Positions 428 to 34,429 of a DNA stretch of 36,612 bases are shown in pieces. Under the pieces are notes generated by a model. The model saw nothing but the letters and a program-made list of their open reading frames with translations, ran no database searches and was not told where the DNA came from. The translations under genes and the position numbers were made by a program. Position 1 is the stretch's first letter. Every line of letters starts with the position of its first letter. Origin of the DNA: Comamonadaceae bacterium (GTDB taxonomy: Bacteria > Pseudomonadota > Gammaproteobacteria > Burkholderiales > Burkholderiaceae_C); contig PNMN01000003.1 of assembly GCA_013823655.1 (NCBI GenBank), positions 1-36,612 on the forward strand. The letters are read 5' to 3'.

Positions 428-3360
428 GCACCCCCACCATCGCCTTCACCCTCGACGGCGTGCCGCTGCTGGCCCGGCAAGGCGAGACCGTGCTCAAAGC
501 GGCGCAGCGCCACGGCGTGGACATCCCGCACCTCTGTCACGCCGACGGCCTGCGCGCCGACGGCAACTGCCGCGCCTGCGTGGTGGAGGTGGCGGGCGAG
601 CGCGCGCTGGCCGCTTCGTGCTGCCGCGCCGTCACGCCCGGCATGGACGTGAAGGCGGGCAGCGCGCGCGCGCTCAAGAGCCAGCAGCTGGTGCTGGAGC
701 TGCTGCTGGCCGACCGGCCCGAGGCGGGCCACCAATGGGTGGATGGGCAAAGCGATCAGCCGCACGGCGAACTCAGCCACTGGGCAAACAGGCTGGGCGT
801 GACGGCCCGGCCCGAACTGAAAGCGCTGCGGCAAGCGGCTCCTGCGCCCGACCTGAGCCACCCCGCCATGGCGGTCAACCTGAACGCCTGCATCCAGTGC
901 ACCCGCTGCGTGCGCGCCTGTCGCGAAACGCAGATGAACGACGTGATCGGCGTCGCCCACCGGGGCGCGCAGGCGCAGATCGTGTTCGATCTGGGCGACC
1001 CCATGGGTGCCAGCAGTTGCGTCGGCTGCGGCGAATGCGTGCAGGCCTGCCCGACCGGCGCGCTCAGCCCCAAGACGCTGATGGGCGACCAGCGCGTGGA
1101 CAAGGCGGTGGACTCGGTCTGCCCCTATTGCGGCGTCGGCTGCCAGCTGACTTACCAGGTCAAGGGCAACACCATCGTGGCCGTCGATGGCCGCAACGGC
1201 CCGGCCAACCAGGGCCGCCTGTGCGTCAAGGGCCGCTTCGGATTCGACTACGCCCAGCACCCGCAGCGCCTGACCAAGCCACTGATCCGCAAGCCCGGCG
1301 TGCCCAAAGACCCCAGCGCCACCGCGCGACCAGACGACTGGCGCGCCGTGTTCCGCGAAGCCAGCTGGGACGAGGCGCTCGACCTCGCCGCCGGTGGTTT
1401 GAAAGCGCTGCGCGACACCCACGGCGACAGAGCGCTGGCTGGCTTTGGCTCCGCCAAGGGCAGCAACGAAGAGGCCTATCTGTTCCAGAAGCTGGTGCGC
1501 ACCGGCTTTGGCAGCAACAACGTGGATCACTGCACCCGCCTGTGCCACGCCAGCAGCGTGGCGGCGCTGCTCGAAGCCGTGGGCTCGGGCGCGGTGAGCA
1601 ACCCGGTGGGCGATGTGGCGCACGCGGCCTTGGTGCTGGTGATCGGCGCCAACCCGACCAACAACCACCCGGTGGCCGCCACCTGGATGAAAAACGCCGC
1701 CGCGCGCGGCACGCAGATCGTGCTGGCCGACCCGCGCCGCACCGACCTGCACCGCCACGCCTGGCGGCACCTGCCGTTCAAGGCCGACACCGACGTCGCC
1801 CTGCTCAACGCCCTGCTGCACGTGGTGATTGCAGAGGGTCTGACAGACGCTGATTTCATCGCCCGCCGCGTCGACAACTTCGACGCCATCCGCGAGCAGG
1901 TGAAACACACCACGCCCGAGGCCATGGCGCCGATCTGCGGCATCGACCCGCACACCATCCGCGAAGTGGCGCGCGCCTACGCCACCAGCCCGGCGTCGAT
2001 GATCCTCTGGGGCATGGGCGTGAGCCAGCACACCCACGGCACCGACAACGTGCGCTGCCTGATCGCGCTGGCCAGCATCACCGGGCAGATCGGCCGCCCC
2101 GGCACAGGCCTGCACCCGCTGCGCGGGCAGAACAACGTGCAGGGCGCGAGCGATGCGGGCCTGATCCCCATGATGTACCCCAACTACCAGCGGGTGAACA
2201 AGCCCGACGCCCACCGCTGGTTTGAGTCTTTCTGGGGCATCCCGCTGGACAGCCAGCCCGGCCTGACGGTGGTGGAGATCCTGCACAAGGCGCAGGCCCC
2301 GGCCGACGACCCGCAGAAGATCTGGGGCATGGTCATCATGGGCGAGAACCCGGCCATGAGCGACCCGGACCTGAACCACGCCCGCGAAGGGCTGGCCAGT
2401 CTGCAGCACCTGGTGGTGCAAGACCTGTTCATGACCGAAACCGCCTGGCTGGCCGACGTGGTGCTGCCCGCCAGCGCCTGGCCCGAGAAGACCGGCACGG
2501 TGACCAACACCGACCGCATGGTGCAGATGGGACGCCGTGCGCTGGACCTGCCGGGTGATGCGAAGCCGGACCTGTGGATCATCCAGCAACTGGCCAGCCG
2601 CATGGGCCCCCACGCTGCGCCGCTGCGCGGGTCGCTGCCCCCCGAGGGGGCTGCCGACGCCTTGGGGCGGCCCCGCGGCGCGGTGGGCCTGAACTGGCAC
2701 TACGAAGGCGACGATGGTGGCGTGGCGGCGGTCTATGAGGAGATGCGCCAGGCCATGCACGGCGGCCACCAGCGGGGCATTCTGGCGGGCGTGAGCTGGC
2801 AGCGGCTGCAGCGCGAAGGCAGCGTGACCTACCCCTGCCTGAACGAGGACGAGCCGGGTCAGCCCATCGTCTTCACCGATCGCTTCGCCACCGCCAACGG
2901 CCGCGTGCAACTGGTGCCCGCCGCGTTCAGACCCGCCGCCGAGTTGCCCGATGCCGACCACCCCTTCGTGCTCATCACCGGGCGCCAGCTGGAGCACTGG
3001 CACACCGGCAGCATGACGCGGCGCAGCCAGGTGCTGGACGCGGTGGAGCCGCACCCGAGCCTGAGTCTGAACGGTGCTGAACTGGCGCGTCTGGGCTTGC
3101 AGGCCGGTGATGTGGTGACGGTGCAATCGCGCCGCGGCAGCGTGGTGCTGCACACCCGGCGCGACGACGGCACGCCGCCGGGCACGGTCTACATGCCCTT
3201 CGCCTATGCCGAGGCGGCGGCCAACCTGCTGACCAACCCGGCGCTCGACCCAACGGCCAAGATTCCCGGGTTCAAGTACTGCGCGGTGCAGGTCACGCCC
3301 GGGGGTGAGCTGCACGAAGGCGTGGGCTGCGGTGGAGCTGCAGAGCCATCCGGGCCATGA
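424..3360 (+). CDS. fdsA: Formate dehydrogenase alpha subunit (molybdopterin, Fe-S), FdsA-like
   Basis: N-terminal 2Fe-2S domain (CHADGLRADGNCRAC), ferredoxin motifs (CIQCTRCVRAC, CVGCGECVQACP), CPYCGVGCQL, DHCTRLCHASS Mo-Cys region and molydopterin-binding C-terminus. ATG at 424 overlaps the fdsB stop. Confidence 0.93.
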   Translation: MSTPTIAFTLDGVPLLARQGETVLKAAQRHGVDIPHLCHADGLRADGNCRACVVEVAGERALAASCCRAVTPGMDVKAGSARALKSQQLVLELLLADRPEAGHQWVDGQSDQPHGELSHWANRLGVTARPELKALRQAAPAPDLSHPAMAVNLNACIQCTRCVRACRETQMNDVIGVAHRGAQAQIVFDLGDPMGASSCVGCGECVQACPTGALSPKTLMGDQRVDKAVDSVCPYCGVGCQLTYQVKGNTIVAVDGRNGPANQGRLCVKGRFGFDYAQHPQRLTKPLIRKPGVPKDPSATARPDDWRAVFREASWDEALDLAAGGLKALRDTHGDRALAGFGSAKGSNEEAYLFQKLVRTGFGSNNVDHCTRLCHASSVAALLEAVGSGAVSNPVGDVAHAALVLVIGANPTNNHPVAATWMKNAAARGTQIVLADPRRTDLHRHAWRHLPFKADTDVALLNALLHVVIAEGLTDADFIARRVDNFDAIREQVKHTTPEAMAPICGIDPHTIREVARAYATSPASMILWGMGVSQHTHGTDNVRCLIALASITGQIGRPGTGLHPLRGQNNVQGASDAGLIPMMYPNYQRVNKPDAHRWFESFWGIPLDSQPGLTVVEILHKAQAPADDPQKIWGMVIMGENPAMSDPDLNHAREGLASLQHLVVQDLFMTETAWLADVVLPASAWPEKTGTVTNTDRMVQMGRRALDLPGDAKPDLWIIQQLASRMGPHAAPLRGSLPPEGAADALGRPRGAVGLNWHYEGDDGGVAAVYEEMRQAMHGGHQRGILAGVSWQRLQREGSVTYPCLNEDEPGQPIVFTDRFATANGRVQLVPAAFRPAAELPDADHPFVLITGRQLEHWHTGSMTRRSQVLDAVEPHPSLSLNGAELARLGLQAGDVVTVQSRRGSVVLHTRRDDGTPPGTVYMPFAYAEAAANLLTNPALDPTAKIPGFKYCAVQVTPGGELHEGVGCGGAAEPSGP
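2605..2690. repeat. Putative GC-rich palindromic repeat element inserted in frame in fdsA
   Basis: cccccacgctgcgccgctgcgcgggtcgctgccccccgagggggctgccgacgccttggggcggccccgcggcgcg; perfect hairpin GCCCCC-CGA-GGGGGC; encodes a low-complexity peptide (PHAAPLRGSLPPEGAADALGRPRGAVG) interrupting the sequence between RMG and LNWHYEG. Confidence 0.55.
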
Positions 3361-12208: not shown

Positions 12209-12300
12209 GGTCTCACCGCAGACCGCACCGGAGAATCCCCTGGACCCGTGGACCGGACTGGGTTCGAACTTTGTTTGCCGACCGTACCGAAAGGAAAAAA

Positions 12301-12474
12301 ATGAGTCTCAACGAACAAGCCAACGAAAGCAGCGAAGACAACGAGCCCGTGCCCTGGATGCAGCGCCTGCTCGACAACCCTTTCATTCTGCTGTTCCTGG
12401 GCGTCATGATTCCCATGGTCGTCTACACGCTGTGGGGCGTGATCGACATCCTCACCGTTCCGCTGGCCAAGTGA
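12301..12474 (+). CDS. Small single-TM protein (57 aa), putative accessory subunit of the heme-copper complex
   Basis: ATG after AGGAAAAAA; MSLNEQANESSEDNEPVPWMQRLLDNPFILLFLGVMIPMVVYTLWGVIDILTVPLAK; first gene of the operon. Confidence 0.7.
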   Translation: MSLNEQANESSEDNEPVPWMQRLLDNPFILLFLGVMIPMVVYTLWGVIDILTVPLAK

Positions 12475-12529: not shown

Positions 12530-13069
12530 ATGAGCGCCATCCTGCCACCCGCCGAACGACTGTGGTGGAAACAGCCGCTGGACCGTGTCGAAGGCACTTG
12601 GATCGTGATCGCTTTTGTCTGGTGCCTGATCATGTTTTTCATGATGGTCGGCTGGCATGTCTACGGCAAGCAGAATCTCTCGACCGAGACCTACAAGACC
12701 ACGCCGGAGATGTTCAGCGCCAAAACGCAGGCCATGGTCGACAAGTACACCGTTCGCACCGAAACCGACGAAAAAATCCCAGTGGTGGCCCCACCGCCGG
12801 GCAGCGACGTCTACCTGATCGCGCGCTTGTGGAGCTTCTGGCCGATTCTCGAACTCGAGAAAGACAAAACCTACCGTCTGCACCTGACATCCCTGGACTA
12901 CAACCACGGGTTCTCGCTGCAGCCGGCCAACATCAACGTCCAGGTCGTGCCGGGATACCAGCACGTGCTGACGGTCACACCCAACCAGAGTGGAGTCTTC
13001 TCGGTGGTGTGTAACGAGTATTGCGGCATCAACCATCACGCGATGGTCGGTCGCATCTACGTCAAGTGA
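12530..13069 (+). CDS. Heme-copper oxidase/NO reductase subunit II with CuA site
   Basis: One N-terminal TM, cupredoxin domain, upstream ligand His (DYNHGF), complete CuA motif C-NEY-C-GIN-H-HA-M. Confidence 0.88.
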   Translation: MSAILPPAERLWWKQPLDRVEGTWIVIAFVWCLIMFFMMVGWHVYGKQNLSTETYKTTPEMFSAKTQAMVDKYTVRTETDEKIPVVAPPPGSDVYLIARLWSFWPILELEKDKTYRLHLTSLDYNHGFSLQPANINVQVVPGYQHVLTVTPNQSGVFSVVCNEYCGINHHAMVGRIYVK

Positions 13070-13080
13070 GTGAGACCACC

Positions 13081-14781
13081 ATGTCCAACGTGACCACCTA
13101 CCGGACCTGCCCGCGCTCGGGCCTGCAGTTCGAAGCCCAAGCCGAAAAACTGATGCTGGCCAACGCCGTCGTGGCGGTGGTTTTCCTGCTCATCGGCGGC
13201 ATCCTGGCCATCGGCGTCGTGCTGACACGCTGGCCCGCAGTGCACTGGCTTGAGGCCGACACCTTCTACCAGGTGCTCACGGCCCACGGCATCGACATGC
13301 TGATCTTCTGGATCATCTTCTTCGAAGTTGCGGTGCTGTATTTCTGTTCATCGACACTGCTGCGCTGCCGCATCGCCACGCCCAGATGGGCTTGGGCTTC
13401 GTTCGTGCTCATGCTGGTGGGTGCCATCATGAACAACGTTGCCGTGTTCCAGGGCGGCTCCAGCGTCATGATGACATCCTATGTGCCGATGATGGCCGCG
13501 CCCTCGTTCTACCTCGGGCTGATCCTGTTCGCGGTCGGCGCGCTGATCGCGTGTTTTGTGTTCCTGGGCACGCTGGTGATCGCCAAGAAGGAAAAGACTT
13601 ACACCGGCTCGGTGCCATTGGTCACCTTCGGCGCCATCACGGCGGCCATCATTGCGATCTTCACCATCGTCTCCGGCGCGATCATCCTGATCCCCACCTG
13701 GCTGCTGTCGCTGGGTGTGATCAGCCATGTCGATCCGCTGATTTACCGCACCATCTGGTGGGCCTTCGGTCACTCGTCGCAGCAAATCAACGTCGCCGTG
13801 CACATCTCGATCTGGTACGCAGTGGCGGCGATCGCTTTCGGCGCCAAACCGATGAGCGAGCGTGTCAGCCGTGGTGCCTTCCTGCTTTACATCCTGTTCC
13901 TGCAGCTCGCCAGCGCCCACCACCTGCTGGCCGACCCGGGCGTGAGCACGGCGTGGAAGATCGTCAACACCAGCTACTTCATGTATTTCGCGGTGCTGGC
14001 CTCGATGATCCATGGCCTGACGATTCCCGGCGCGATGGAAGTGGCGCAGCGCGCCAAGGGCTACAACAACGGTTTGTTCGAGTGGCTGCGCAAGGCGCCC
14101 TGGGGCAATCCGGTGTTCTCGGGCGTGTTCATCTCGATCATTGGCTTTGGTTTCCTGGGCGGGATCTCGGGCGTGATGATGGGCACCGAGCAACTCAACA
14201 TGATCATTCACAACACAATCTACGTACCGGGGCACTTCCACGCCACCGTGGTGATCGGCACCACGCTGTCCTTCATGTCACTGACCTACTTCCTGATTCC
14301 GGTGCTGTTCCGCCGTGAAATGATCGCACCCAAGCTGGCCCAATGGCAGCCCTACCTGTTCGGCCTGTCGATGTACTTCTTCGCCCTCGTGATGATGGGT
14401 GCGGGCACGCTGGGTGTCTCACGCCGACACTGGGACATGGCCTTCAGCGGCGCGGCGCTGGCCTACGATTGGCCAGGACTGGCCTACCTGATGATGGGCC
14501 TGGTCGGCATCACAGGCATGGCGGCCATCGCCGGTGGCGCGATCTACATCTACGTCACGGTGGGTTCTCTGCTGTGGGGTCGCCGTCTGGACAACGGCAC
14601 CGTCAGCGCCAAAACCACGCCGATCCCGCGGACGGCCCCCAATGTGGCGATTCAGAGCCACGGCTCGGCTGGCTTTGCGGCACCCGGCACCTTCGTCCTG
14701 GCGATGATTTTCCTCGTCGCCTTCGTGGTGTATTACTTCATCAACTGGAAGTACCTCTCCACGCTGTGGGGTCTGAGCTGA
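13081..14781 (+). CDS. Heme-copper subunit I lacking the cross-linked Tyr; putative NO reductase catalytic subunit
   Basis: Helix II TAHGIDMLIFW; helix VI GHSSQQ in place of GHPEVY; helix VII SAHHLLADPG; helix X GHFHATVVIG. All heme/CuB His present, Tyr absent. Confidence 0.85.
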   Translation: MSNVTTYRTCPRSGLQFEAQAEKLMLANAVVAVVFLLIGGILAIGVVLTRWPAVHWLEADTFYQVLTAHGIDMLIFWIIFFEVAVLYFCSSTLLRCRIATPRWAWASFVLMLVGAIMNNVAVFQGGSSVMMTSYVPMMAAPSFYLGLILFAVGALIACFVFLGTLVIAKKEKTYTGSVPLVTFGAITAAIIAIFTIVSGAIILIPTWLLSLGVISHVDPLIYRTIWWAFGHSSQQINVAVHISIWYAVAAIAFGAKPMSERVSRGAFLLYILFLQLASAHHLLADPGVSTAWKIVNTSYFMYFAVLASMIHGLTIPGAMEVAQRAKGYNNGLFEWLRKAPWGNPVFSGVFISIIGFGFLGGISGVMMGTEQLNMIIHNTIYVPGHFHATVVIGTTLSFMSLTYFLIPVLFRREMIAPKLAQWQPYLFGLSMYFFALVMMGAGTLGVSRRHWDMAFSGAALAYDWPGLAYLMMGLVGITGMAAIAGGAIYIYVTVGSLLWGRRLDNGTVSAKTTPIPRTAPNVAIQSHGSAGFAAPGTFVLAMIFLVAFVVYYFINWKYLSTLWGLS

Positions 14782-14824: not shown

Positions 14825-15721
14825 ATGGATGCCACGCTGAACCCCGGCCACGACACCATCATGCGGCGTGTGCGCACCGTGGTCGGTCTTTTCAAACTGC
14901 GCATTGGCGTGGTGGTGATGATCAGTGCGCTGGCCGGGCTGGCCATCACCCCCGGCGCGGCGCTGAGCAGCGTGCAGGTGCTGGTGCTGGCTTTGTCGGT
15001 GCTGGTGGCGTCGGCCAGTGCGGGCGCCTTCAACCAGTACGCCGAGCGCCATGTTGACCACCTGATGAAGCGCACCGCCGGGCGCGCATTCGTCACTGGC
15101 GCCTTGTCGGACTCCCGGCTGTGGCTGCTGTTGATGGCGGTGATGTTGGCCGGTGCAGTGGGGGCGGCTTGGGTCGCGATCAATTCGCTGTCGGCGCTGT
15201 TTGTTTTCCTGGGCGCTTTTTTCTACGCCGTGGTCTACACGGTGTGGCTCAAGCGGCGCAGCGCCATGAACATCGTCATCGGTGGTCTTTCGGGCAGTTT
15301 TGCGGTGCTGGCCGGCGGTGCCGCAGTCGACCCCGCACTGGGTCCCATGCCGCTGCTGCTGGCGCTGGTCTTGTTCCTGTGGACGCCGCCGCATTTCTGG
15401 AGCCTGGCGATCGCCAACCACGCCGACTACGCCGCCGCAGGGGTGCCCATGCTGCCCGTGGTGGTAGGGCCCGAGCGTGCGGCAGTGGTCGTGTTCTGGA
15501 GCACCCTGGCCCTGGTGCTGGCGTCGTTGCTGCCACTGGCCTACGGGGCCGGCGCGGTCTACGGCGCCGGTGCGCTGGCGGGAGGCACCGTCTTCCTGCA
15601 CCGCGCGTGGGTGCTGATGCGCCGACCCGGGCGTGGCACGGCCATGCGCTGCTTCTTTGCCTCGATGGCGCAGCTCAGCCTGCTGCTGCTGGCTGCGATG
15701 CTCGATGCCGCGATGCGCTGA
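14825..15721 (+). CDS. ctaB: Protoheme IX farnesyltransferase (heme O synthase) CtaB-like
   Basis: UbiA family; NQYAERHVDHLMKRT, YTVWLKRRSAMNIVIGGLSG, LFLWTPPHFWSLAI. Confidence 0.88.
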   Translation: MDATLNPGHDTIMRRVRTVVGLFKLRIGVVVMISALAGLAITPGAALSSVQVLVLALSVLVASASAGAFNQYAERHVDHLMKRTAGRAFVTGALSDSRLWLLLMAVMLAGAVGAAWVAINSLSALFVFLGAFFYAVVYTVWLKRRSAMNIVIGGLSGSFAVLAGGAAVDPALGPMPLLLALVLFLWTPPHFWSLAIANHADYAAAGVPMLPVVVGPERAAVVVFWSTLALVLASLLPLAYGAGAVYGAGALAGGTVFLHRAWVLMRRPGRGTAMRCFFASMAQLSLLLLAAMLDAAMR

Positions 15722-15746: not shown

Positions 15747-16757
15747 ATGGTGCGACCGAACCCGATGCATCGCCACCTTTCCATCGCTCTCTTGTCACCG
15801 CCCCGGCACCGTGCCACCGACTGTGGTGCGCGGACCGGCCTGCGGGGGCTGCTCATGCTCATGGGCGTGTGTCTGTGCCTCGGACTGGCAAGCGGTTACG
15901 TCTGGGCTGCGGCACCCGCAGCCCCGGTGTCCAACACCACCGGTGGCAGCGCTGTGCAGGCACTGGACGAAACCACGGCGCTGGCCGCCGGGCGCTCGGC
16001 CATCGGTCGCGACATCGGTGAGCACAGCCTGATCGACAGCAACGGTCGCGCACTGCGGCTGTCTTCCTATCGCGGCAAGCCGCTGGTGGTGAGCTTCATC
16101 TACACCGGCTGCTTCCAGATCTGCCCCAGCGGCACCAAGGCGCTGGACGAGGCGGTCAAGGGCCTGGAAAAGGCTTTCGGCCCCGACAGCTTTCACATCG
16201 TCAGCATCGGTTTCAACCAACCCTTTGACTCGCCTGCGGCCATGCGCGCTTTTGCCGCGCAGCAAGGCATCACGGCGCGCAACTGGGATTTCCTGAGCCC
16301 GTCGCCGGCCGCCGTGGACAAGCTCACCCACGCCTTTGGTTTCAGCTATGTGCCCACGCCAGCCGGGTTCGACCATGTGCTGATGGCCACCGTGGTCAAC
16401 GCCGAAGGCCGCATTCACGCACAGGTGTTTGGCGACCGGCTCACGGCCAGTCAGGTGGGTGAACCGCTGCGCCAGTTGCTGCGTGCCAGCGGCGTGCCAC
16501 CCGAGCTGACACTGTCCAGCGTGATCGAGCGCGTGCGCGTGCTGTGCACCGTGTACGACCCTGAGACCGACAGCTACCGCTACGACTTCTCACTGATCTT
16601 CACGATCGCCGGGGGCATCACCTTTTTCATCGCCATGCTGTTCTTCTTTGCTGGCGAATGGCGCGACCGACGGCGTCGGCAACGCGTGCTGCGTCAATCG
16701 GTGGCTGCGGCGGCAACCAAAACGCCACTTGACGCTGCAGCACCGGTGGTGCGCTGA
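15747..16757 (+). CDS. SCO1/SenC family copper chaperone with C-terminal TM extension
   Basis: CFQICPS (CX3C), conserved His (FDHVLM), C-terminal TM segment FSLIFTIAGGITFFIAMLFFFAGEW. Confidence 0.82.
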   Translation: MVRPNPMHRHLSIALLSPPRHRATDCGARTGLRGLLMLMGVCLCLGLASGYVWAAAPAAPVSNTTGGSAVQALDETTALAAGRSAIGRDIGEHSLIDSNGRALRLSSYRGKPLVVSFIYTGCFQICPSGTKALDEAVKGLEKAFGPDSFHIVSIGFNQPFDSPAAMRAFAAQQGITARNWDFLSPSPAAVDKLTHAFGFSYVPTPAGFDHVLMATVVNAEGRIHAQVFGDRLTASQVGEPLRQLLRASGVPPELTLSSVIERVRVLCTVYDPETDSYRYDFSLIFTIAGGITFFIAMLFFFAGEWRDRRRRQRVLRQSVAAAATKTPLDAAAPVVR

Positions 16758-16766
16758 GAGCCTCCC

Positions 16767-18332
16767 ATGCAAGCACTGCGCAACACGCGGCTGGCTGGGC
16801 TGGCGGTTTACGTCCGCGTCGAGCGCCTGTTCGATGCCGCCTTCGGCGCCGCGCGCAACCCGCTGCGCCACCTTGGCGCCACCGGCTTCATGCTGTTCTG
16901 GTGGCTGGCCCTGAGCGGCATCTATCTCTACGCCGTGCTCGACACCTCGGTGGCTGGCGCACACCGGTCGATCCAGGCGCTGTCGCAAGGACCTTGGGCC
17001 GTGGGCGGCGTGTTGCGCAGCCTGCACCGCTACTCGGCCGATGCCTTTGTGCTGGTGATGGGCCTGCACCTGCTGCGTGAAGGGCTGCACGGTCGCTACC
17101 ATGGCTTTCGGCGCCACCCCTGGCTCACCGGTGTGCCGCTGCTGCCGCTGGTCTTTGTCTGCGCCGTGGGCGGTTTCTGGCTCAACTGGGATCAACTGGG
17201 GCAATTCTCTGCCGTGGCCAGCGCCGAATGGCTGGACCGTCTGCCGTTGATGGCTTCGTCGATATCGCGCAACTTCATCAGCGCCGCAGCGGTGAATGAC
17301 CGCCTGTTCTCGCTGTTCGTTTTCATCCACCTGGGCGTGCCGCTGCTGCTGGTGTTCGGCCTGTGGTTCCACATCCAGCGTCTGAGTCATGCCCAAGTGT
17401 TTCCGCCGCGCCCGGTGGCGCTGGGCACCAGCGGGGTGCTGCTGGCGCTGGCGCTGGCGCTGCCGGTGCTGAGCCACCCACCGGCCGACATGGCCGTGGT
17501 GCCGACGGTGCTGGCCTACGACTGGCTGCTCTTGTTCATCCACCCGCTGGCCGCCGCATTCTCCAACGACACACTGTGGCTGCTGCTCGCGCTGGTCCTT
17601 CTGACGCTGCTGGTCCTGCCCTTCATGCCGCAGCCCGCACCGCCGCCGGTGGCCCAGGTCGATCCCGCCCATTGCAGTGGCTGTCGGCGCTGCATGGCAG
17701 ACTGCCCCTACGCCGCCATCACCATGGCGCCACATCCGTACGAACGCCTCGGTCGTCTCGGGCGTGAGACGGCGGTGGTGGACGCCGACCTGTGCGCGAG
17801 TTGTGGCATCTGCGTCGGTGCCTGCCCGTCCTCGACGCCGTTTCGCAGCGTGGCCCGACTGGTCACCGGCATCGACCTGCCACAAGCCCCGATTGGCGAA
17901 TTGCGCCATCGCCTGCAGCGCCAGTTGGCGGTCATGACGAGCGGGCGCCGCATCGTCGTTTTCGGCTGCGACCACGGTGCCCGGGTGGCCGCACTGGCCG
18001 CGCCCGACGTGGCCCCCTTCAGCCTGGCCTGTGTCGGCATGCTGCCGCCCTCGTTTGTGGAGTACGCCCTGCGCGATGGCGCCGACGGGGTGCTCATCAG
18101 TGGTTGCGCCGAGGGTGCCTGCGAATTCCGGCTCGGTCAGCGCTGGAGCGCCGAGCGCCTGGCCGGTGCGCGCGAGCCACACCTGCGCGCCCACATCCCT
18201 GCCGCGCAATGGGCCACCGCCTGGGCCGACGCAAGTGACGAAGACGGGCTTCGAGCCGCCTTGCAGCAACTGCGCAGACAGCTCGATGAGCATGTCGCTC
18301 GCCCTTCCAGACTGGAGGCGGAAAGTGCCTGA
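16767..18332 (+). CDS. Fusion: diheme cytochrome b (bc1 N-terminal type) + 2x[4Fe-4S] ferredoxin + MvhD/hydrogenase delta-like domain
   Basis: Paired His: HRYSADAFVLVMGLH and HLGVPLLLVFGLWFH; CSGCRRCMADCP and CASCGICVGACP; MvhD-like VVFGCDHGA...DGVLISGCAEGACEFRLG. Confidence 0.85.
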   Translation: MQALRNTRLAGLAVYVRVERLFDAAFGAARNPLRHLGATGFMLFWWLALSGIYLYAVLDTSVAGAHRSIQALSQGPWAVGGVLRSLHRYSADAFVLVMGLHLLREGLHGRYHGFRRHPWLTGVPLLPLVFVCAVGGFWLNWDQLGQFSAVASAEWLDRLPLMASSISRNFISAAAVNDRLFSLFVFIHLGVPLLLVFGLWFHIQRLSHAQVFPPRPVALGTSGVLLALALALPVLSHPPADMAVVPTVLAYDWLLLFIHPLAAAFSNDTLWLLLALVLLTLLVLPFMPQPAPPPVAQVDPAHCSGCRRCMADCPYAAITMAPHPYERLGRLGRETAVVDADLCASCGICVGACPSSTPFRSVARLVTGIDLPQAPIGELRHRLQRQLAVMTSGRRIVVFGCDHGARVAALAAPDVAPFSLACVGMLPPSFVEYALRDGADGVLISGCAEGACEFRLGQRWSAERLAGAREPHLRAHIPAAQWATAWADASDEDGLRAALQQLRRQLDEHVARPSRLEAESA

Positions 18333-18843
18333 ACGTGCGCCCGTCACACCCGCAGCCTGGATCGGCCAGGTGCTGCTGTACGCCTTGTTTGCGCTGGTCA
18401 TCGGCGTCTTTTCGCGCTGGCCTCCCTACCAGGTGCTGCCCGAAGGTCAGGCCCTCATCAAACTGAGCTTCGTGCACCAGGGCAAGCTGGTGTCCGACTG
18501 CCGCCCCACACCGCCCGAAGAGCTGGCCCGGCTGCAGCCCACCATGCGAGCGCCACTCCAGTGTCCGCGTGAGCGCTCACCGGTGACGGTCGAGCTCGAG
18601 CTGGACGGTCAACTGGTGCATGGGCAGACCGCGCAACCCGCTGGTCTGTCGCGCGACGGCAACTCGGTCGTCTACCACAAGCTGCAAGTGCCGGCCGGCG
18701 AACACCACCTGAGCGTGCGCATCAAAGACGACATCCGCAGCCCCGGCTTCAACCATCGGCGCGAGGCCCGCGTGACGCTGCGTTCGGCCCAGATCATGGT
18801 GATCGATTTCAACGCCGAATCAGGTGAGATCACATTGCAATGA
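18325..18843 (+). CDS. Membrane-anchored periplasmic protein of unknown function
   Basis: GTG start after GGAGG; single N-terminal TM then soluble domain; overlaps upstream gene stop and downstream ATG (ATGA at 18840). Confidence 0.7.
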   Translation: MPERAPVTPAAWIGQVLLYALFALVIGVFSRWPPYQVLPEGQALIKLSFVHQGKLVSDCRPTPPEELARLQPTMRAPLQCPRERSPVTVELELDGQLVHGQTAQPAGLSRDGNSVVYHKLQVPAGEHHLSVRIKDDIRSPGFNHRREARVTLRSAQIMVIDFNAESGEITLQ

Positions 18844-20285
18844 ACCCACTGAACCCAAGCTTCGACGGCCACCGCTCACCCCCCCGCAGCAGCGCGCAAG
18901 CCCAGGCAGGCCACCTCTACGAACTGCGCCTGAGCAGCGACACCAGCCTGGCGCTGGCGCGTGGCTGGCTCTGGCTGGGCCTGCTGGCGCTGATTGTCTC
19001 GGGTCTGTTCGCGGTGGTGCTCGTGCTGGCGCGCACGCCGGGCCTGAATCAGTTTCTGCCACTGGCCGATCTCTTTCGCGTGGCGCTGGTCGTGCATGTC
19101 GATTTGTCGGTGCTGGTGTGGTTCACCGCCATGGCAGGCCTGCTGTGGAGCCTGAACAGCAGCGCAGCAGGTCGGCGCACCGGCTGGGCCGCCTGGGGCT
19201 TGTGCGCACTGGGAACGGCGCTGATGTGCGTGGCGCCATTTGCCGACCCGGGCACCCCGCTGATGGCCAACTACATCCCGGTGATTGACGGACCCGTCTT
19301 CCTCACCGGGCTGCTGCTGTTCGGTGTCGGCACCACGCTGCTGGTGCTGCGCAGTCTGTGGGCCGCCTTGCCTCCGGGGCTGCGGCTGGACGGTGCCGCC
19401 GCACTGCGTTTTGGTCTCAACGCCAGCGTCGTGGCCACGGCCGTGGCGCTGCTGGCCTTTGCCGCGTCCTTTGTGCTGACACCGGCCTCGCTGTCCGGCA
19501 AGCCCTACTACGAAATCCTGTTCTGGGGCGGTGGCCATGCGCTGCAGTTCACCTGGACCTTGCTGATGCTGGTCGGATGGCTGTGGCTGGCCGGCGCCTG
19601 CGGCATGCGGGTACCCCTGAGCCCGCGCCTGGCCTTGCTGATGTTTGCGCTGGCGCTGGTCAGCGTGTTTGTCACGCCCTACGCCTACCTGGCGCACGAC
19701 ATCGCCAGCGTCGAGCACCGCAACCTGCACACCTGGGCCATGCGCATCGGCGGTGGCCTGGCCATCGCGCCAGTGACGCTGGCGGTGGGCTGGGGGCTGA
19801 TGCAGGCCCGCGCACAGCCGCTACAGCCCAACCAGCAGCCGCTGCGCGTGGCGCTGCTGTCGTCGATGCTGCTGTTTGCCGTCGGCGGCATCATCGGTGT
19901 GCTGATCAACGGCAACAACGTTCGCATTCCGGCCCATTACCACGGCAGCATCGTCGGCGTGACGCTGGCGCTGATGGGCCTGGTCTACCACCTGTTGCCG
20001 CAGTTGGGCTGGCGCGCGCCCGCAGGGCGTCTGGCCGTCTGGCAGCCGGCACTGTATGGCGTCGGGCAGTTGATGCACATCGTGGGGCTGGTGTGGTCGG
20101 GCGGCTACGGCGTACAACGCAAAGTGGCCGGCAGCGAACAGGTGCTGCGCAGCACAGCCGAAGTGGCGGGCATGGGCCTGATGGGGCTTGGCGGGCTGAT
20201 TGCCATCATCGGGGGCATGCTCTTCGTGGTCGTGGTGCTGCGCGCCATGCGCGCGCCTGCTGTGCGTGCTGCGTCCAATTCCTGA
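18840..20285 (+). CDS. Divergent heme-copper oxidase-superfamily subunit I homolog (unassigned family)
   Basis: Multi-TM; helix II VVHVDLSVLVWF; helix VI FWGGGHALQF; helix X NNVRIPAHYHGSIVGVTLALMG; canonical HH of helix VII not seen (EHRNLHTW instead). Confidence 0.7.
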   Translation: MNPLNPSFDGHRSPPRSSAQAQAGHLYELRLSSDTSLALARGWLWLGLLALIVSGLFAVVLVLARTPGLNQFLPLADLFRVALVVHVDLSVLVWFTAMAGLLWSLNSSAAGRRTGWAAWGLCALGTALMCVAPFADPGTPLMANYIPVIDGPVFLTGLLLFGVGTTLLVLRSLWAALPPGLRLDGAAALRFGLNASVVATAVALLAFAASFVLTPASLSGKPYYEILFWGGGHALQFTWTLLMLVGWLWLAGACGMRVPLSPRLALLMFALALVSVFVTPYAYLAHDIASVEHRNLHTWAMRIGGGLAIAPVTLAVGWGLMQARAQPLQPNQQPLRVALLSSMLLFAVGGIIGVLINGNNVRIPAHYHGSIVGVTLALMGLVYHLLPQLGWRAPAGRLAVWQPALYGVGQLMHIVGLVWSGGYGVQRKVAGSEQVLRSTAEVAGMGLMGLGGLIAIIGGMLFVVVVLRAMRAPAVRAASNS

Positions 20286-20292
20286 AGCGCCC

Positions 20293-22200
20293 ATGAGCAA
20301 CCCGATCCAGGTGCTGCTGCGCTGGCCCTTCATGCACGTCGAGGCACTGTTCAACCGTGCCTTCGGCGACCGCATCAACCCGCTGTACCACCTGGGTTCG
20401 ATCACCTTCTTCCTGTTCTGGATCATCGGTGGCAGCGGCCTGTACCTGTACATCTTCTTCGACACCAGCGTGAGCGGCGCCTACGATTCGGTGGAGGCCA
20501 TGACGCACCAGCAGTGGTTTGCCGGCGGCGTGATGCGCAGCATGCACCGCTACGCTTCCGATGCCATGGTGATCACGATGTTGGTGCACATGCTGCGCTA
20601 CTACGCGTTCGACCGCTTGCGCGGTTTTCGCTCCTTTTCCTGGCTGACCGGCGTGGCGCTGATCTGGGGGGTGTTCGCCTCGGGCGTGAACGGTTTCATG
20701 CTGCCCTGGGACCGGCTGGCGCAATACGTCACCATCGCCAGTTTTGAATGGCTGGACTGGCTGCCCAGCTTCGGTGGCACGCTGATCCGCAACTTCATCG
20801 TCCCCAGCAGCGTCAGCGACCGCCTGTTTTCGCTGCTGGTGTTCGTCCACATCGGCGTGCCGCTGCTGGTGCTGCTGCTGATGTGGATCCATGTGCAGCG
20901 GGTGCCCAATGCCAGTCTGCAACCACCGCGGCCCATCGCCATCGGCATGGTGCTGTTGCTGCTGGCCCTGTCGCTGCTGCAGCCGGTGCACAGCCAAGGG
21001 GGTGCCGCCGACCTGGCCAGCGCCGTCACGCGACTCGATCTCGATTGGTTTTTGCTGTGGCTGTTCCCGCTCATCGACCGCTGGCCCCTGGGCTGGGTGT
21101 GGGCGCTGGTGTCGCTGGCCACGCTGCTGCTGCTGGTTCTGCCCTGGCTGCCGCCCAAGCGCCGCCGCAACGCCGGGGACGCGCTGCAAATGACGCTGCA
21201 CCCCGGTGGCACCAAGATCGCCCTGCGCTCGGGCGAAACCCTGCTCGAAGCGGGCCTGCGTGCCGGCCTGGCGTTGCCTTACGAATGCCGCAACGGCGGC
21301 TGTGGTGTCTGCCTGTGCAGCGTGCACCACGGCAAGGTTGACCACGGGCACTACCAGGCCGACGCATTGAGTGCCGAAATGCGCCAGCGTGGTCAGGCAC
21401 TGATGTGCTGCGCCACAGCGCTGGAAGATGTCGAGATCATTGTCGATGTGCCATCTCTGATCCACTCCGATGCCCCGAGCTTGCGACGCTGGCACGGGCG
21501 CGTGCAGCAGATGACCCGCCTCGGCCCCGACGTGATGCGCTTGCTGGTGACGCCGCCCGATCAAGGCATCGCCTTTACCGCCGGTCAGTACCTCGACATC
21601 GTGCTGGCCGACGGTCAGCGCCGCGCCTTCTCCTTCGCCAGCCCACCGAACGGTGGCGGCCTGATCGAGCTGCACGTGGCGCTGGTTCCCGGTGGACGTT
21701 TCACGACCCAGGTCTTTGAATCGATGCAGGAAGGCGACACACTGGAACTCGAAGGTCCCTTCGGCCACTTCACGCTCACCGAAAGCGCGCGGCCGATCCT
21801 GTTCGTGGCGGGCGCAACCGGTTTTGCCCCGGTCAAGAGCATCGTTGAAGATGCCTTTCAGCGTGGTATCCAGCGCCCCATGCGCCTGTACTGGGGAGCA
21901 CGCAACATCGGCGACCTGTACCTGCTGGACCTGGCGCGCCAATGGCAGGCAGACCATCCCCACTTCGAGTTCGTGCCGGTGCTGTCCGAACCCGACCCGG
22001 ACTGGAATGGCCGCACCGGCCTGGTCCACGAGGCCATGCTCAGTGATTTTCCCGATCTGCGCGAACACGAAATATACGTCTGCGGTTCGCTGATCATGGT
22101 AGAAGTTGCCATCCCGGCCTTCTTGGCCCATGGTGCTTCCCAGAACCACTGTTTCTCCGACGCCTTCACGACACAGCGACCGCATCAGCCTCCATCCTGA
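20293..22200 (+). CDS. Fusion: diheme cytochrome b + plant-type [2Fe-2S] ferredoxin + FAD/NAD(P)H oxidoreductase
   Basis: HRYASDAMVITMLVH and HIGVPLLVLLLMWIH; CRNGGCGVCLC...C; FAD motif RAFSFAS; NAD-binding GATGFAPVKS and YVCGSLIMVE. Confidence 0.88.
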   Translation: MSNPIQVLLRWPFMHVEALFNRAFGDRINPLYHLGSITFFLFWIIGGSGLYLYIFFDTSVSGAYDSVEAMTHQQWFAGGVMRSMHRYASDAMVITMLVHMLRYYAFDRLRGFRSFSWLTGVALIWGVFASGVNGFMLPWDRLAQYVTIASFEWLDWLPSFGGTLIRNFIVPSSVSDRLFSLLVFVHIGVPLLVLLLMWIHVQRVPNASLQPPRPIAIGMVLLLLALSLLQPVHSQGGAADLASAVTRLDLDWFLLWLFPLIDRWPLGWVWALVSLATLLLLVLPWLPPKRRRNAGDALQMTLHPGGTKIALRSGETLLEAGLRAGLALPYECRNGGCGVCLCSVHHGKVDHGHYQADALSAEMRQRGQALMCCATALEDVEIIVDVPSLIHSDAPSLRRWHGRVQQMTRLGPDVMRLLVTPPDQGIAFTAGQYLDIVLADGQRRAFSFASPPNGGGLIELHVALVPGGRFTTQVFESMQEGDTLELEGPFGHFTLTESARPILFVAGATGFAPVKSIVEDAFQRGIQRPMRLYWGARNIGDLYLLDLARQWQADHPHFEFVPVLSEPDPDWNGRTGLVHEAMLSDFPDLREHEIYVCGSLIMVEVAIPAFLAHGASQNHCFSDAFTTQRPHQPPS

Positions 22201-22221: not shown

Positions 22222-22923
22222 ATGGAAATCCGATCCTCGCCCCCCAGTTTCGACATACCCCGCTACCTGTCGACGCTGCCACAGTTCAGTGAGCTCGACG
22301 CAGCCGACCAGCAGCGCCTGGCCAAAGGCTGCTCGCTGCGTCGCCTGCAGCGCGGCGACATGGTCCAGCATGCCGGTGCACCCTGCGAGGCATTCCACAT
22401 CACGGTGGTGGGGCAGATCAAGTTGTTTGCCTTGTCTGCCGAAGGAAAGGAGAAGGTGGTGGAGATCGTGGGACCGAGCGGCAGTTTTGGCGAGGCGCCG
22501 ATGTTTCTGGACCAACCCTGTCTGCTCAGCGCACTGGCGCTCACCGACGTGCTGCTGCTGGACGTCAACCGACGCATCCTTCTGGATGAGATCGAACGCA
22601 ATCCCAGCATCGCCATGTGCATGCTGGCGGGCTTGTCGCGTCGGCTGCACGGCATGGTCCGCGACGTGCAGTCCTATGCACTGCACAGCGGTCTTCATCG
22701 CGTGATCGGCTATTTGCTGCGCGAGAGTGATGGCCTGGCGACCCAGGCATTCACGTTGTCATTGCCGGTCAGCAAGGCCACCGTCGCCTCGCGCCTGTCG
22801 CTGACGCCGGAGTACTTCTCGCGTGTGTTGCACGAACTGGAGACGGCCCGCCTGATCGCCATCGACCGGCGCGACATCCACGTGCTGGATCTGGCCCGTC
22901 TGGCCGCGTATTCGCCGCCGTAG
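22222..22923 (+). CDS. Crp/Fnr family regulator (Dnr/NnrR-like) 1
   Basis: cNMP-binding-like domain, HTH with recognition helix TPEYFSRVLHELE (ExxSR), no FNR-type N-terminal Cys cluster. Confidence 0.85.
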   Translation: MEIRSSPPSFDIPRYLSTLPQFSELDAADQQRLAKGCSLRRLQRGDMVQHAGAPCEAFHITVVGQIKLFALSAEGKEKVVEIVGPSGSFGEAPMFLDQPCLLSALALTDVLLLDVNRRILLDEIERNPSIAMCMLAGLSRRLHGMVRDVQSYALHSGLHRVIGYLLRESDGLATQAFTLSLPVSKATVASRLSLTPEYFSRVLHELETARLIAIDRRDIHVLDLARLAAYSPP

Positions 22924-22958
22924 CAAAGTGGCGCAGATGGCTGCTGCCCGCGCCGGGC

Positions 22959-22982
22959 CTGGGTCAAGGGCTGGGTCAAGGG
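22959..22982 (+). repeat. Perfect 12-bp tandem repeat (CTGGGTCAAGGG)x2
   Basis: ctgggtcaagggctgggtcaaggg, in the gap between the two Crp/Fnr genes. Confidence 0.8.
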
Positions 22983-23069
22983 CCTCATCGGCCGATTGGC
23001 GGACATACAATCAAAAACCGACCCCCGTCGGCCCCACGATGCACTAAGAGTGCTGAGAGTCTTTCGCCC

Positions 23070-23759
23070 ATGCAATCGCAACAGATCGATCTGCCGCGCT
23101 ACCTGTCGGTCTTGCCGCTGTTTGGCGACCTGAGAACCGACGAGCTCGTCCGGCTGGCCGAGGGCTGCCAGCTGCGTCGCATGCCTCGGGGCGACATGGT
23201 CTGCCGCATGGGCCAGCCCTGCGAAGAGTTCCACGTGGTGGTGGTGGGCCAGGTGAAGCTGTTTGCGATCTCGCCCGACGGTCATGAAAAGGTGATTGAG
23301 CTGGTTGGACCTGGCAACAGCTTTGGCGAAGCCCTGATGTTCAGCGGTCGTGCCTATGTGGTCAATGTTCAGACCTTGTCCGACAGCCTCTTGCTGGTGG
23401 TCAGCAAGGCCGCCGTTCTGGCCGAGGTGGCGCGTGACCCGCGCTTTGCGATGCGCTTGCTCACCAATCTCTCGCGGCGCATGCAAAGCCTCATCAACGA
23501 CGTGCAATCGGACGCTTTGCACAGCGGCATGCAGCGCGTGATCGGCTACTTGCTGCGCGAGAGCGAGAGCCAGGCGCCCCAGGTTTTCACGCTGTCATTG
23601 CCGGCCAGCAAGGCCACCATCGCCTCGCGCCTGTCGCTGACGCCGGAGTACTTCTCGCGCGTGTTGCACGAACTGGAGGCCGCCGGTTTGATCGTTATCG
23701 ACAAACGCGAGGTGCGCATCCTTGACGCAGCCAGGCTGGCGCGTTACCCGGCGACCTGA
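23070..23759 (+). CDS. Crp/Fnr family regulator (Dnr/NnrR-like) 2
   Basis: Same architecture as the upstream gene; C-terminal HTH almost identical (SKATIASRLSLTPEYFSRVLHELE). Confidence 0.85.
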   Translation: MQSQQIDLPRYLSVLPLFGDLRTDELVRLAEGCQLRRMPRGDMVCRMGQPCEEFHVVVVGQVKLFAISPDGHEKVIELVGPGNSFGEALMFSGRAYVVNVQTLSDSLLLVVSKAAVLAEVARDPRFAMRLLTNLSRRMQSLINDVQSDALHSGMQRVIGYLLRESESQAPQVFTLSLPASKATIASRLSLTPEYFSRVLHELEAAGLIVIDKREVRILDAARLARYPAT

Positions 23760-31027: not shown

Positions 31028-31897
31028 TCAATGCTTGTTAGCCGTGATATCGGCCTTGGCGTCCAGACCCAGCGTGTGACCCAGCGACACGTGATGGAAA
31101 CGTCCGGCGCTGTGGTCGTCGTGGATGGCAAACCCGAAGTTGTAGGTCTTGCCTGCGGTCAAAGCGATGTCGCCCTGCCCGCCGGTGAACTTGCGCGTGA
31201 AGACCACGACCCACTCGTCGCCCTTCTTCTCGCCCTTGGCGTCAACCAACGCCTTGCCACCGTCCATCACGCGTTTGTCGGCAACATGACCGTCGTGCCT
31301 GGCGCCTTTGCTGGTCCATTGCATCAAGTCGTAGTACTTGCCAGTGGCCAGGTTGCCATCCTTCACGTACTTGGTTTTCTTGTCGTCCTTGCCATCGGGC
31401 ATGGTGCGCAGGTCGGCGTGACAGGATTCCCAGCAACCCGACAGGTTGGCCCGCTCGATCTTGTTGTCGTCAAGCATCAGCGTGAGCTTGACCTGGTTGG
31501 TCGGGTCCATTTTCTCGGCGCCGCCACCGGCCGGCTGCTTCCAGCTGAAGCGCAGATAGAGCTGGCTGCCGTCGTGCGCGGCCTGCACGTTGACGGGAAC
31601 AGAACCCGCCTTGCCCTTGATGGGGCGGGGTTCGAGCAACTGCCCGCTGGCCAATTTCTTGCCCATGTCGGCGGCTTCTTGATCGTGGCAACTGGCACAG
31701 CTCTCGCCCTTGCGCAGCGCGCGCGCGCCACTGTGGTCGGAGCCCTTGGTGATCCACTCGATGGGTGAGGCGCCGGGATACAGCAGCGTGATCTTGCTGG
31801 CGGTCACCTTGCTCCAGTCGGGCGGCGCGGCCTGGGCCGAGCCCAGCGTCAAGCCCAGACAGGCGCAGAGCAAGAGAAGGGGGGGTGTGTGTTTCAT
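31028..31897 (-). CDS. nirB: Diheme cytochrome c552-like (NirB / ethylbenzene dehydrogenase-related domain)
   Basis: Signal peptide, CASCH motif plus CWESCH (CX3CH) motif; third gene after nirS-nirT as in nirSTB operons. Confidence 0.65.
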   Translation of the reverse strand: MKHTPPLLLLCACLGLTLGSAQAAPPDWSKVTASKITLLYPGASPIEWITKGSDHSGARALRKGESCASCHDQEAADMGKKLASGQLLEPRPIKGKAGSVPVNVQAAHDGSQLYLRFSWKQPAGGGAEKMDPTNQVKLTLMLDDNKIERANLSGCWESCHADLRTMPDGKDDKKTKYVKDGNLATGKYYDLMQWTSKGARHDGHVADKRVMDGGKALVDAKGEKKGDEWVVVFTRKFTGGQGDIALTAGKTYNFGFAIHDDHSAGRFHHVSLGHTLGLDAKADITANKH

Positions 31898-31936
31898 CAT
31901 CGTTCCTCGCAAATGGGCTGGGGTCGGGGTTGACAT

Positions 31937-32530
31937 CTACTCTTCTTCCTTCATGCCTGCCGGTTTTTTGTGGGCGATGCCTTGGTGGCAATCGATGCAG
32001 GTCTCGTTGTTCTTCACCGCCAGTTCGTGCGAGCGCTTGGCGCGTGGTTTTTGCTTTTCGGTGTCCATGCTGGCCATTGAATGGCAGTTGCGGCATTCCA
32101 GCGAGTCGTTGGCCTTCATGCGCGTCCATTCGCGTTCAGCCAACCGCAGGCGGTGTGCCTCGAATTTTTCGGGCGTGTCGATGGTGCCGAGGACTTTGCC
32201 GTAGAGCTCGCGCGTGGCCTGCACCTTGCGAACCATCTTGGGCACCCATTCGCGCGGCACATGGCAATCGGCGCAGACGGCGCGCACACCAGTGCGGTTG
32301 TTGTAATGGATGGTCTTTTGATACTCGGCATACACGTTGTCTCTCATCTCATGACAACTGATGCAAAAGGTTTCGGAGTTGGTGGCCACGACCGCCGTGT
32401 TGAAGCCACCCCAAAACAGCACGCCCGAAATGAAACCGACCACCAGCAGCGTCAGCAGGGAATATTTGGCACTGGGGCGACGCAGGCGACTGAGAATGCC
32501 ACCACCAGGCGAGGGAGAGCTCTTGTTCAT
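31937..32530 (-). CDS. nirT: NapC/NirT family tetraheme cytochrome c
   Basis: N-terminal TM anchor; CISCH, CADCH, CRNCH, CIDCH. Confidence 0.9.
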   Translation of the reverse strand: MNKSSPSPGGGILSRLRRPSAKYSLLTLLVVGFISGVLFWGGFNTAVVATNSETFCISCHEMRDNVYAEYQKTIHYNNRTGVRAVCADCHVPREWVPKMVRKVQATRELYGKVLGTIDTPEKFEAHRLRLAEREWTRMKANDSLECRNCHSMASMDTEKQKPRAKRSHELAVKNNETCIDCHQGIAHKKPAGMKEEE

Positions 32531-32636
32531 GCGTTGCAGGCTCGTATTGCGGCGAAACAGGCGACCGCCGCAGCGGTCGCACCACGCTTGGGCGGTGCGC
32601 CAGGCAGGCGCACCGCCGTTACCCATCAAGCAGCCC

Positions 32637-34313
32637 TCAATAGATGTCGTGCTGCGTGTTCCAGACGTTGAACTTGCCGGTCGGCGTGATCATGTCGGGG
32701 CTGGTGATCACCCTCTTGAGCTTCAGCGTCTTGTCGTCGTAGATCACGATGGCCGACTGGTCGGTCTTGCCACCCCACAGCGAGATCCAGACTTCGTCGC
32801 CCTTTTCGTTGTACTCCTGGTGCACGGCACGGCGCAGCGCCTTGGTCACCGGCAGGCCGGAGTCCTTGGCGACATCGATGCGAACCGGCGGCTTGCTCAG
32901 GTCGCGAATGTCAAACACATAGTTGACCTCGGCCATCTCGCGCTCGGGGTGCATCGGCATGTCGGCCCACAGGTGGTTCGATTTCGGATGCGTCTTGACG
33001 AACAGGTTGCCGGCACCGGGCATCTTCAGCTCTTGGACAACTTTCCAGTTGTACTGCTTGAACTTGGCGTGCTTCGGGTCGTCCGAAGGCGTCGAGATCA
33101 GCGACACCACCGGATCGCCCAGGTGGCCCGTGGCCCAGACTGGGCCGTACTGCGGGTGCATGAAGTTGGCGCCGCGTCCCGGGTGCGGGATCTTGGCGGT
33201 GTCGATCAGTGCCGCCAGCTTGCCGGTCTTGGTGTCCACCGCCGCGATCTTGTTCGAGGCGTTGGCCGCGACCAGGAAGTAGCGCTTGCTGGCGTCCCAG
33301 CCACCGTCATGCAGAAACTTGGCCGACTCGATTTTGGTCGTCTTCAGGTTCTTGATGTCGCTGTAGTCGACCAGCAGGATCATGCCGGTCTCCTTGATGT
33401 TCACCACCCACTCGGGCTTGATGTGCGAGGACACGATCGAGGCCACGCGCGGCTCCGGATGGTACTCGCCGTCGACCGTCATGCCGCGCGTGGAAACCAC
33501 TTTGAGAGGTTCCAGCGTGCCCCCGTCCATGATCGAGTACTGGGGCGGCCAGTAGCTGCCGCCGATCAGGTACTTGTCCTCGTAGCCCTTGAACTTGGAG
33601 GTGTCCACCGAGCGTGCGTCGGAGCCCATGCGGATGGTGGCGACCGTGGTCGGCTTCTCAAACCACATGTCAATCAGTGTCACCAGGCCATCGCGGCCCA
33701 CCGTGTAGACATAGCGGCCCGACAGCGACAGGCGCGAGATATGCACCGCGTAGCCGGTGTCCAGAATCTGCCAGATCTGCTTGGTGTCGCCGTCGATCAG
33801 CGCCAGCTTGCCGGTGTCGCGCAAGGTGGTGGCGAAAACGTTCTTCAAGTTGATGTTGTTCATCTGCTTGGTCGGACGCTGCGCCACCGGCACGATCAGC
33901 TTCCATGAATCCCGCATGTCTTTCAGGCTGAATTCGGGCGGGATCGGTGGCACCTGCTGGATGTAGCGCGCCATGATGTTGATCTCTTCCTTGCTCAGGA
34001 TGTCGTCATAGTTCACCATGCCGCCCTCGGTGCCCAGAGCAATGATTTTCTCCAGGCGCGCGGTGCCCAGTTTGAGCATGCCACCCTCCTGTACCGTGCC
34101 ATCGGGGGCCTTCTTGGACCACAGCGGCTCCAGGTTCTTGCCCGTCGCACCCTTGCGCAGCACACCGTGGCAGCCCGCGCAGCGCTCGAAGTAAATTTTC
34201 TTGCCCACCTCCTGCTCAGCTGCGCTCATGGGCGGTGCGGTCTGGCCGTAGGCCGAGAACGCGCTGACCAGCAGCGCGGCTGCAGCGACGAGGTTGAACT
34301 TGCCTGTCTTCAT
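32637..34313 (-). CDS. nirS: Cytochrome cd1 nitrite reductase NirS
   Basis: Signal peptide, CAGCH motif, d1 propeller (YSIMDGGTLEPL, SHIKPEWVVNIKETG, HPGRGANF), C-terminus FNVWNTQHDIY. Confidence 0.95.
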   Translation of the reverse strand: MKTGKFNLVAAAALLVSAFSAYGQTAPPMSAAEQEVGKKIYFERCAGCHGVLRKGATGKNLEPLWSKKAPDGTVQEGGMLKLGTARLEKIIALGTEGGMVNYDDILSKEEINIMARYIQQVPPIPPEFSLKDMRDSWKLIVPVAQRPTKQMNNINLKNVFATTLRDTGKLALIDGDTKQIWQILDTGYAVHISRLSLSGRYVYTVGRDGLVTLIDMWFEKPTTVATIRMGSDARSVDTSKFKGYEDKYLIGGSYWPPQYSIMDGGTLEPLKVVSTRGMTVDGEYHPEPRVASIVSSHIKPEWVVNIKETGMILLVDYSDIKNLKTTKIESAKFLHDGGWDASKRYFLVAANASNKIAAVDTKTGKLAALIDTAKIPHPGRGANFMHPQYGPVWATGHLGDPVVSLISTPSDDPKHAKFKQYNWKVVQELKMPGAGNLFVKTHPKSNHLWADMPMHPEREMAEVNYVFDIRDLSKPPVRIDVAKDSGLPVTKALRRAVHQEYNEKGDEVWISLWGGKTDQSAIVIYDDKTLKLKRVITSPDMITPTGKFNVWNTQHDIY

Positions 34314-34429
34314 GAAAGAACTCCTTGTATGTTTCGCGCAGCCGGCCCCGTGTTGACGCGAGGCTCGCTGGCGGCTGCATTGCCATGGTGCGAGCGAGGG
34401 CATCGTGCGCTTGGGGGAGTTCTCTGTCC

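Follow-up and report, generated by a model that had tools for sequence, protein, structure and literature searches.

The FlpD/MvhD domain is known as a relay into HdrA, mainly from methane-making microbes. Its presence at the end of a membrane cytochrome b, encoded within a denitrification island of a Comamonadaceae bacterium, raises the question of which electrons such a protein carries and to what partner. A preliminary description, made from the sequence alone, had suggested that the fused protein forms a membrane exit or entry for an Hdr- or ferredoxin-type electron carrier. The window considered here is the entire analysed stretch of 36,612 nucleotides (contig PNMN01000003.1), in which the gene, referred to as cytb-FlpD, and its predicted segments are located as follows:

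16767..18332, + strand: cytb-FlpD, 521 aa; predicted cytochrome b (helices A-F), 2x[4Fe-4S] ferredoxin and FlpD/MvhD
16872..17642, + strand: cytochrome b segment, aa 36-292; haem His 87/101/188/202, DW (aa 252-253) at the PxWY (Qo) position
17670..17834, + strand: two-cluster ferredoxin domain, aa 302-356; 8 invariant Cys
17967..18287, + strand: FlpD/MvhD domain, aa 401-507; 4 invariant Cys (401, 422, 447, 452)

The three-part reading of this open reading frame, already put forward in the preliminary description, is borne out by Pfam matches above the curated cut-offs for Cytochrome_B (PF00033, aa 36-206, E 1.6e-15, 57.9 bits against a cut-off of 27.2), a Fer4 dicluster (aa 302-355, E 2.4e-10) and FlpD (PF02662, aa 412-507, E 1.8e-12, 47.8 bits against 22.3). 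The motifs listed there are likewise in place: two histidine pairs with 14-residue spacing (H87/H101 and H188/H202), two CX2CX2CX3CP clusters (303-314 and 343-354), and an MvhD-like C-terminus with a GC...GC...C pattern, whose ~130 aa match solved MvhD chains (9sw2_D, 1.8e-7; 5odc_D, 3.5e-6) in addition to PF02662. Judged from their ligands, the cofactors are probably two [4Fe-4S] clusters and, in FlpD, a [2Fe-2S]-type cluster.

Homologues of cytb-FlpD were gathered from 80 contigs of named assemblies and from sampled genomes. All four haem histidines, the eight ferredoxin cysteines and the four FlpD cysteines are retained in 107/107 aligned sequences, the two invariant histidine pairs agreeing with the diheme cytochrome b originally proposed, and PF00033 and PF02662 each match individually in all 77 representative members. 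These invariant ligands and paired domain matches mark cytb-FlpD as one old, intact gene. The fused frame recurs intact in more than 100 loci, which rules out a frameshift or chimera joining separate genes, an artefact that the preliminary description had considered. Apparent internal stops in several homologues, which might have indicated selenocysteine, are ordinary terminal stop codons. In a tree of the cytochrome b segment, the FlpD-fused forms stand apart from FNR-fused paralogues and from bc1 cytochromes (branch support 96/92).

An AlphaFold2 model of the protein (mean pLDDT 92.7) places residues 16-291 in the fold of complex III cytochrome b helices A-F (Z about 20-23; Foldseek, VIA-align 2), with a structural match that runs to about residue 311 of the mammalian protein. 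Sequence and model together make cytb-FlpD a putative electron-transfer subunit of the membrane that descends from the cytochrome b of complex III. Profile alignment against the bc1 cytochrome b of related genomes puts the invariant D252-W253 on the PVWY (PxWY, Qo) motif, whose flanking P and Y are not kept, and shows the Qi-forming stretch between helices D and E to be largely missing; because this alignment was forced to be global, the structural match is also needed to support its register. In bc1 cytochrome b, the end of helix F lies on the N side. Since the tail of cytb-FlpD comes after helix F, we infer from this topology that its Fe-S and FlpD modules should be on the cytoplasmic side.

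Eight genes make up the operon, in the order cox2 - hco1 - ctaB - sco - cytb-FlpD - tm - hco2 - cytb-FNR; neighbouring genes overlap at the cytb-FlpD/tm/hco2 junctions. The remaining features of the operon and its surroundings are:

12530..13069, + strand: cox2, haem-copper oxidase (HCO) subunit II with CuA ligands
13081..14781, + strand: hco1, HCO subunit I, ba3-like, Gln236 at the catalytic-Tyr position (numbered from codon 13078)
14825..15721, + strand: ctaB, haem o synthase (TIGR01473, 1.3e-73)
15750..16757, + strand: sco, SCO1/SenC copper chaperone (start codon approximate)
18325..18843, + strand: tm, 172 aa, one predicted TM helix and periplasmic beta-sandwich; no known family
18840..20285, + strand: hco2, second HCO-like protein; H86, H233, H366 and H368 kept, helix VII His-His copper ligands missing
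20293..22200, + strand: cytb-FNR, paralogue with the same cytochrome b segment plus predicted [2Fe-2S] and FAD/NAD(P)H reductase modules
22222..23759, + strand: two Crp/Fnr-type regulators, downstream of the operon
32637..34403, - strand: NirS-like cytochrome cd1 (context)

The denitrification island recognized in the preliminary description is evident in the window from nirS-like, nirF/N-like, nirDL, nirJ, nirE, NapC/NirT and ccm genes. No Fnr/NnrR-type box was found upstream of cox2; five matches with one mismatch occur in the window, all elsewhere. A short hydrophobic frame at ~12240-12474 ends just 5' of cox2 (...VMIPMVVYTLWGVIDILTVPLAK*) and may be a small oxidase subunit. Two further features lie outside the operon. 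A molybdopterin oxidoreductase gene with Fer2/Fer4 domains, formate dehydrogenase alpha-like, is found at 229-3360, and genes weakly similar to it occur near the operon in several relatives. Directly beside nirS, at 31028-32629, lie a gene for an ethylbenzene-dehydrogenase-type haem domain and a NapC/NirT gene, a trio with nirS that recurs in loci L010, L057 and L079.

The operon is kept across Burkholderiales and in some Lysobacterales and Steroidobacteraceae. Among Burkholderiales-type loci with room for the neighbour in question, cytb-FlpD is accompanied by tm in 73/75, hco1 in 62/62, hco2 in 65/66 and cytb-FNR in 58/58. A Defluviimonas plasmid carries cox2-hco1-ctaB-sco-cytb-FlpD-tm and lacks hco2 and FNR, and one other lineage (L155, L156, L157) has a tandem cytb-FlpD pair with tm and hco2 in place of the FlpD/FNR pair. 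In deeper lineages of the phylum, the unit is reduced to cytb-FlpD and tm, adjoining cox2-hco1-ctaB-sco or nirS; these two genes thus form the constant core.

The partner gene tm adjoins cytb-FlpD in 96 of the 98 loci with room. Its protein is modeled with high confidence (pLDDT 96.5) as one TM helix followed by a periplasmic beta-sandwich, and two of its cysteines are nearly invariant. Pfam and NCBIfam contain no family that matches it, and a fold search returned weak beta-sandwich matches only (Z up to 9.7). FixH did not match at E values up to 5 in either collection, although distant homology could escape such searches. Ligands for a Rieske-like cluster or other cofactors are not evident in tm.

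The hco2 family (18840-20285 in the window; homologues L121-L170) often occurs alone in other lineages, several times beside ctaA, and possibly represents a copper-less relative of the haem-copper oxidases, judging from its residues. We do not argue for hco2 as a second active NO reductase (gNOR/nNOR), because the helix VII His-His pair is not conserved in a ~120-member alignment. The cytb-FNR protein, with its BenC-like reductase module, has a NOX-like layout built on a different cytochrome, and its gene is kept beside cytb-FlpD in Burkholderiales.

The strongest link of cytb-FlpD is to a putative eNOR-type NO reductase encoded by its own operon; the preliminary description mentions neither this link nor the cytb-FNR paralogue. 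Where ba3 oxidase has its catalytic tyrosine, hco1 has Gln236 in 68/68 sequences, with the haem and copper ligands H232/H281/H282 present in 68/68 and H386/H388 in 67/68; the cox2 gene upstream encodes a subunit with a CuA motif (C161..M172). A Tyr-to-Gln substitution together with an upstream CuA subunit identifies eNOR-type enzymes in Table A4 of a published survey (PMC8756737), and hco1 with cox2 is thus a putative CuA-containing, Tyr-to-Gln (eNOR-type) NO reductase. Of 398 genomes surveyed in the phylum, 30 have hco1, 34 have cytb-FlpD and 29 have both, so that cytb-FlpD accompanies hco1 in 29/30 genomes and hco1 accompanies cytb-FlpD in 29/34. In the sole exception among hco1 genomes, the contig stops right after sco, where cytb-FlpD should begin. 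The corresponding Fisher p of 8e-38 is uncorrected for shared ancestry and overstates independence, since the genomes are related to each other; the association extends over several families. A nitrite reductase is encoded in all 40 cytb-FlpD carriers checked, cd1-type NirS in 39 and NirK in one. Together, cytb-FlpD and the eNOR-type enzyme suggest a putative dedicated electron route for NO removal.

Several modes of action are compatible with this association. We favor, with a probability of roughly 0.4, a model in which cytb-FlpD serves NO reduction during denitrification as a dedicated electron supply, fed by a low-potential donor in the cytoplasm. We infer donor, direction and acceptor as follows. 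The donor docking at FlpD would be ferredoxin in its reduced form or a reductase linked to NAD(P)H, with HdrA unnecessary, and electrons would pass from the [2Fe-2S] cluster through the two [4Fe-4S] clusters to haem bH and across the membrane to haem bL. They would leave near haem bL on the periplasmic side, where either a quinone bound in the Qo-like pocket or the NO reductase complex itself would accept them. For Burkholderiales, cytb-FNR may add a parallel entry, as another cytochrome b that draws on NAD(P)H. BenC-type FNR modules accept NAD(P)H, and MvhD passes hydrogenase electrons into HdrA (PMC9012536); cytoplasmic entry via FlpD is favored because both FlpD and FNR modules serve as entry modules elsewhere. 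Beside the core pair lies no gene for a dedicated soluble donor, and the search for an FlpD partner gene upstream in the deep lineages turned up cysE/isc-like neighbours only, in one lineage, named by eye from translations. That the Qo-like site has been retained argues for a quinone at this position. Against an electron feed, transfer from the cytoplasm to a quinone on the periplasmic side would waste proton-motive force, and a retained Qo-like site is what quinol oxidation would lead one to expect.

Quinol oxidation could indeed run the chain in reverse, with electrons from the periplasmic Qo-like site moving to the cytoplasm in a NarI-like topology and leaving via FlpD to a cytoplasmic acceptor. 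Such a geometry would build proton-motive force and conserve energy, and it would account for an invariant DW at the PxWY position in a protein that has lost its Qi stretch. We nevertheless regard it as quite unlikely, since no cytoplasmic reductase is conserved beside cytb-FlpD and low-potential-type Fe-S and FlpD modules would be odd acceptors for ubiquinol electrons. A variant of this idea invokes quinone-based bifurcation by a complex III-derived module, in which quinol at the Qo-like site would pass one electron to the high-potential CuA/NO side, while the other would reach ferredoxin or NAD(P)+ by way of the b haems and the Fe-S clusters. The retained Qo architecture, the near-obligate association with an enzyme that uses a very oxidising acceptor, and a paralogue, cytb-FNR, that could make NAD(P)H are all consistent with it, as is a match of the Fer4-FlpD tail to the C-terminal module of HdrA2 (NF040770 positions 569-770, 3.8e-19). 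If this were true, denitrifiers would harvest the oxidising power of NO for low-potential reductant (ferredoxin or NAD(P)H). The operon encodes no Rieske-type acceptor for the first electron, however; neither a Rieske protein nor cytochrome c1/f was recognized among the Pfam-scanned open reading frames of the operon and window, tm included, and tm lacks evident cofactor ligands, which makes bifurcation very unlikely. The same tail match indicates that kinship with HdrA2 is real, and FlpD and Fer4 resemble both HdrA2 and MvhD, as would be expected if cytb-FlpD were the membrane exit or entry of a heterodisulfide-reductase (HdrA) system. Genome content contradicts this. Eighteen of 19 near-complete carrier genomes have a single FlpD (PF02662) and no HdrA, and matches on the scale of HdrA were absent from all but G094, the only one with a second FlpD, which lies in an HdrA2-type locus elsewhere in that genome. 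In the genome that the window comes from (82.7% complete), FlpD likewise occurs once. The hdrA-like partners sought on the strength of the preliminary description are thus missing from 18 of the 19 genomes, and we consider a link to HdrA extremely improbable; of the carriers it envisaged at the membrane, a ferredoxin-type one is still plausible and Hdr is not supported.

The placement of cytb-FlpD beside sco leaves room for a role in assembly, and co-occurrence with hco1 cannot tell electron supply from assembly. As a maturation factor, similar to NOX/ferric reductases or to CcoG, the protein would carry cytoplasmic electrons to the periplasm, where they would reduce disulfides or Cu(II) as SCO inserts copper into the NO reductase. 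Its gene lies directly 3' of sco in 73/75 Burkholderiales-type loci and close to ctaB, it co-occurs tightly with one particular CuA enzyme, and tm contributes a periplasmic domain and two nearly invariant cysteines. Yet in deep lineages cytb-FlpD and tm are often separated from sco and hco1, several times beside nirS, and neither Pfam nor NCBIfam identifies tm as FixH/CcoH. A maturation role also leaves the retention of the Qo-like motif unexplained, and to our knowledge CcoG is not a cytochrome b. On balance, we judge it unlikely, and the electron feed from a cytoplasmic donor is the reading we retain.

The component domains of cytb-FlpD are already known. Like complex III/b6f cytochrome b (PF00033), it has helices A-F, two haem histidine pairs and a motif at the PxWY position (here xDW), but it stops after helix F, lacks the Qi-forming stretch and gains a cytoplasmic Fe-S/FlpD tail, in an operon that has no Rieske protein or cytochrome c1. 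With MvhD/FlpD (PF02662) and the HdrA2 C-terminal module (NF040770), it shares a Fer4 dicluster and, after it, an FlpD domain whose cysteines are conserved, but it is fused to a membrane cytochrome b and its operon includes no HdrA, HdrBC or hydrogenase. In transmembrane cytochromes of the NADPH oxidase/ferric reductase type, a cytoplasmic reductase module feeds two b haems across the membrane, as cytb-FNR may do, although cytb-FNR, like cytb-FlpD, is built on a bc1-type cytochrome b. The Tyr-to-Gln substitution and CuA site of hco1 and cox2 are shared with eNOR/CuANOR NO reductases (B-family-related), and the eNOR/CuANOR descriptions consulted do not mention a cytochrome b-FlpD subunit. The same three-part architecture seems to have been tabulated before, as RME88945.1 (cyt b6 PRK03735, DMSOR_beta-like and FlpD), a likeness by description that comes from an Appendix table made for another domain search in a Chloroflexi survey (PMC8756737); neither a function nor a gene context for it was found in that text. 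A search of the open-access literature found no paper on the function of cytb-FlpD.

What sets this family apart is a FlpD domain with every ligand kept in denitrifiers that mostly lack HdrA, mounted on a complex III-type cytochrome b and tied to one class of NO reductase. The operon is a concrete gene set that can be tested by knock-out in cultivable carriers such as Simplicispira lacusdiani, Comamonas granuli and Paucibacter oligotrophus. This arrangement suggests that bc1 and cytochrome c are not alone in supplying NO reduction with electrons; a second source of this kind would affect the origin of N2O and the redox balance of denitrifiers.
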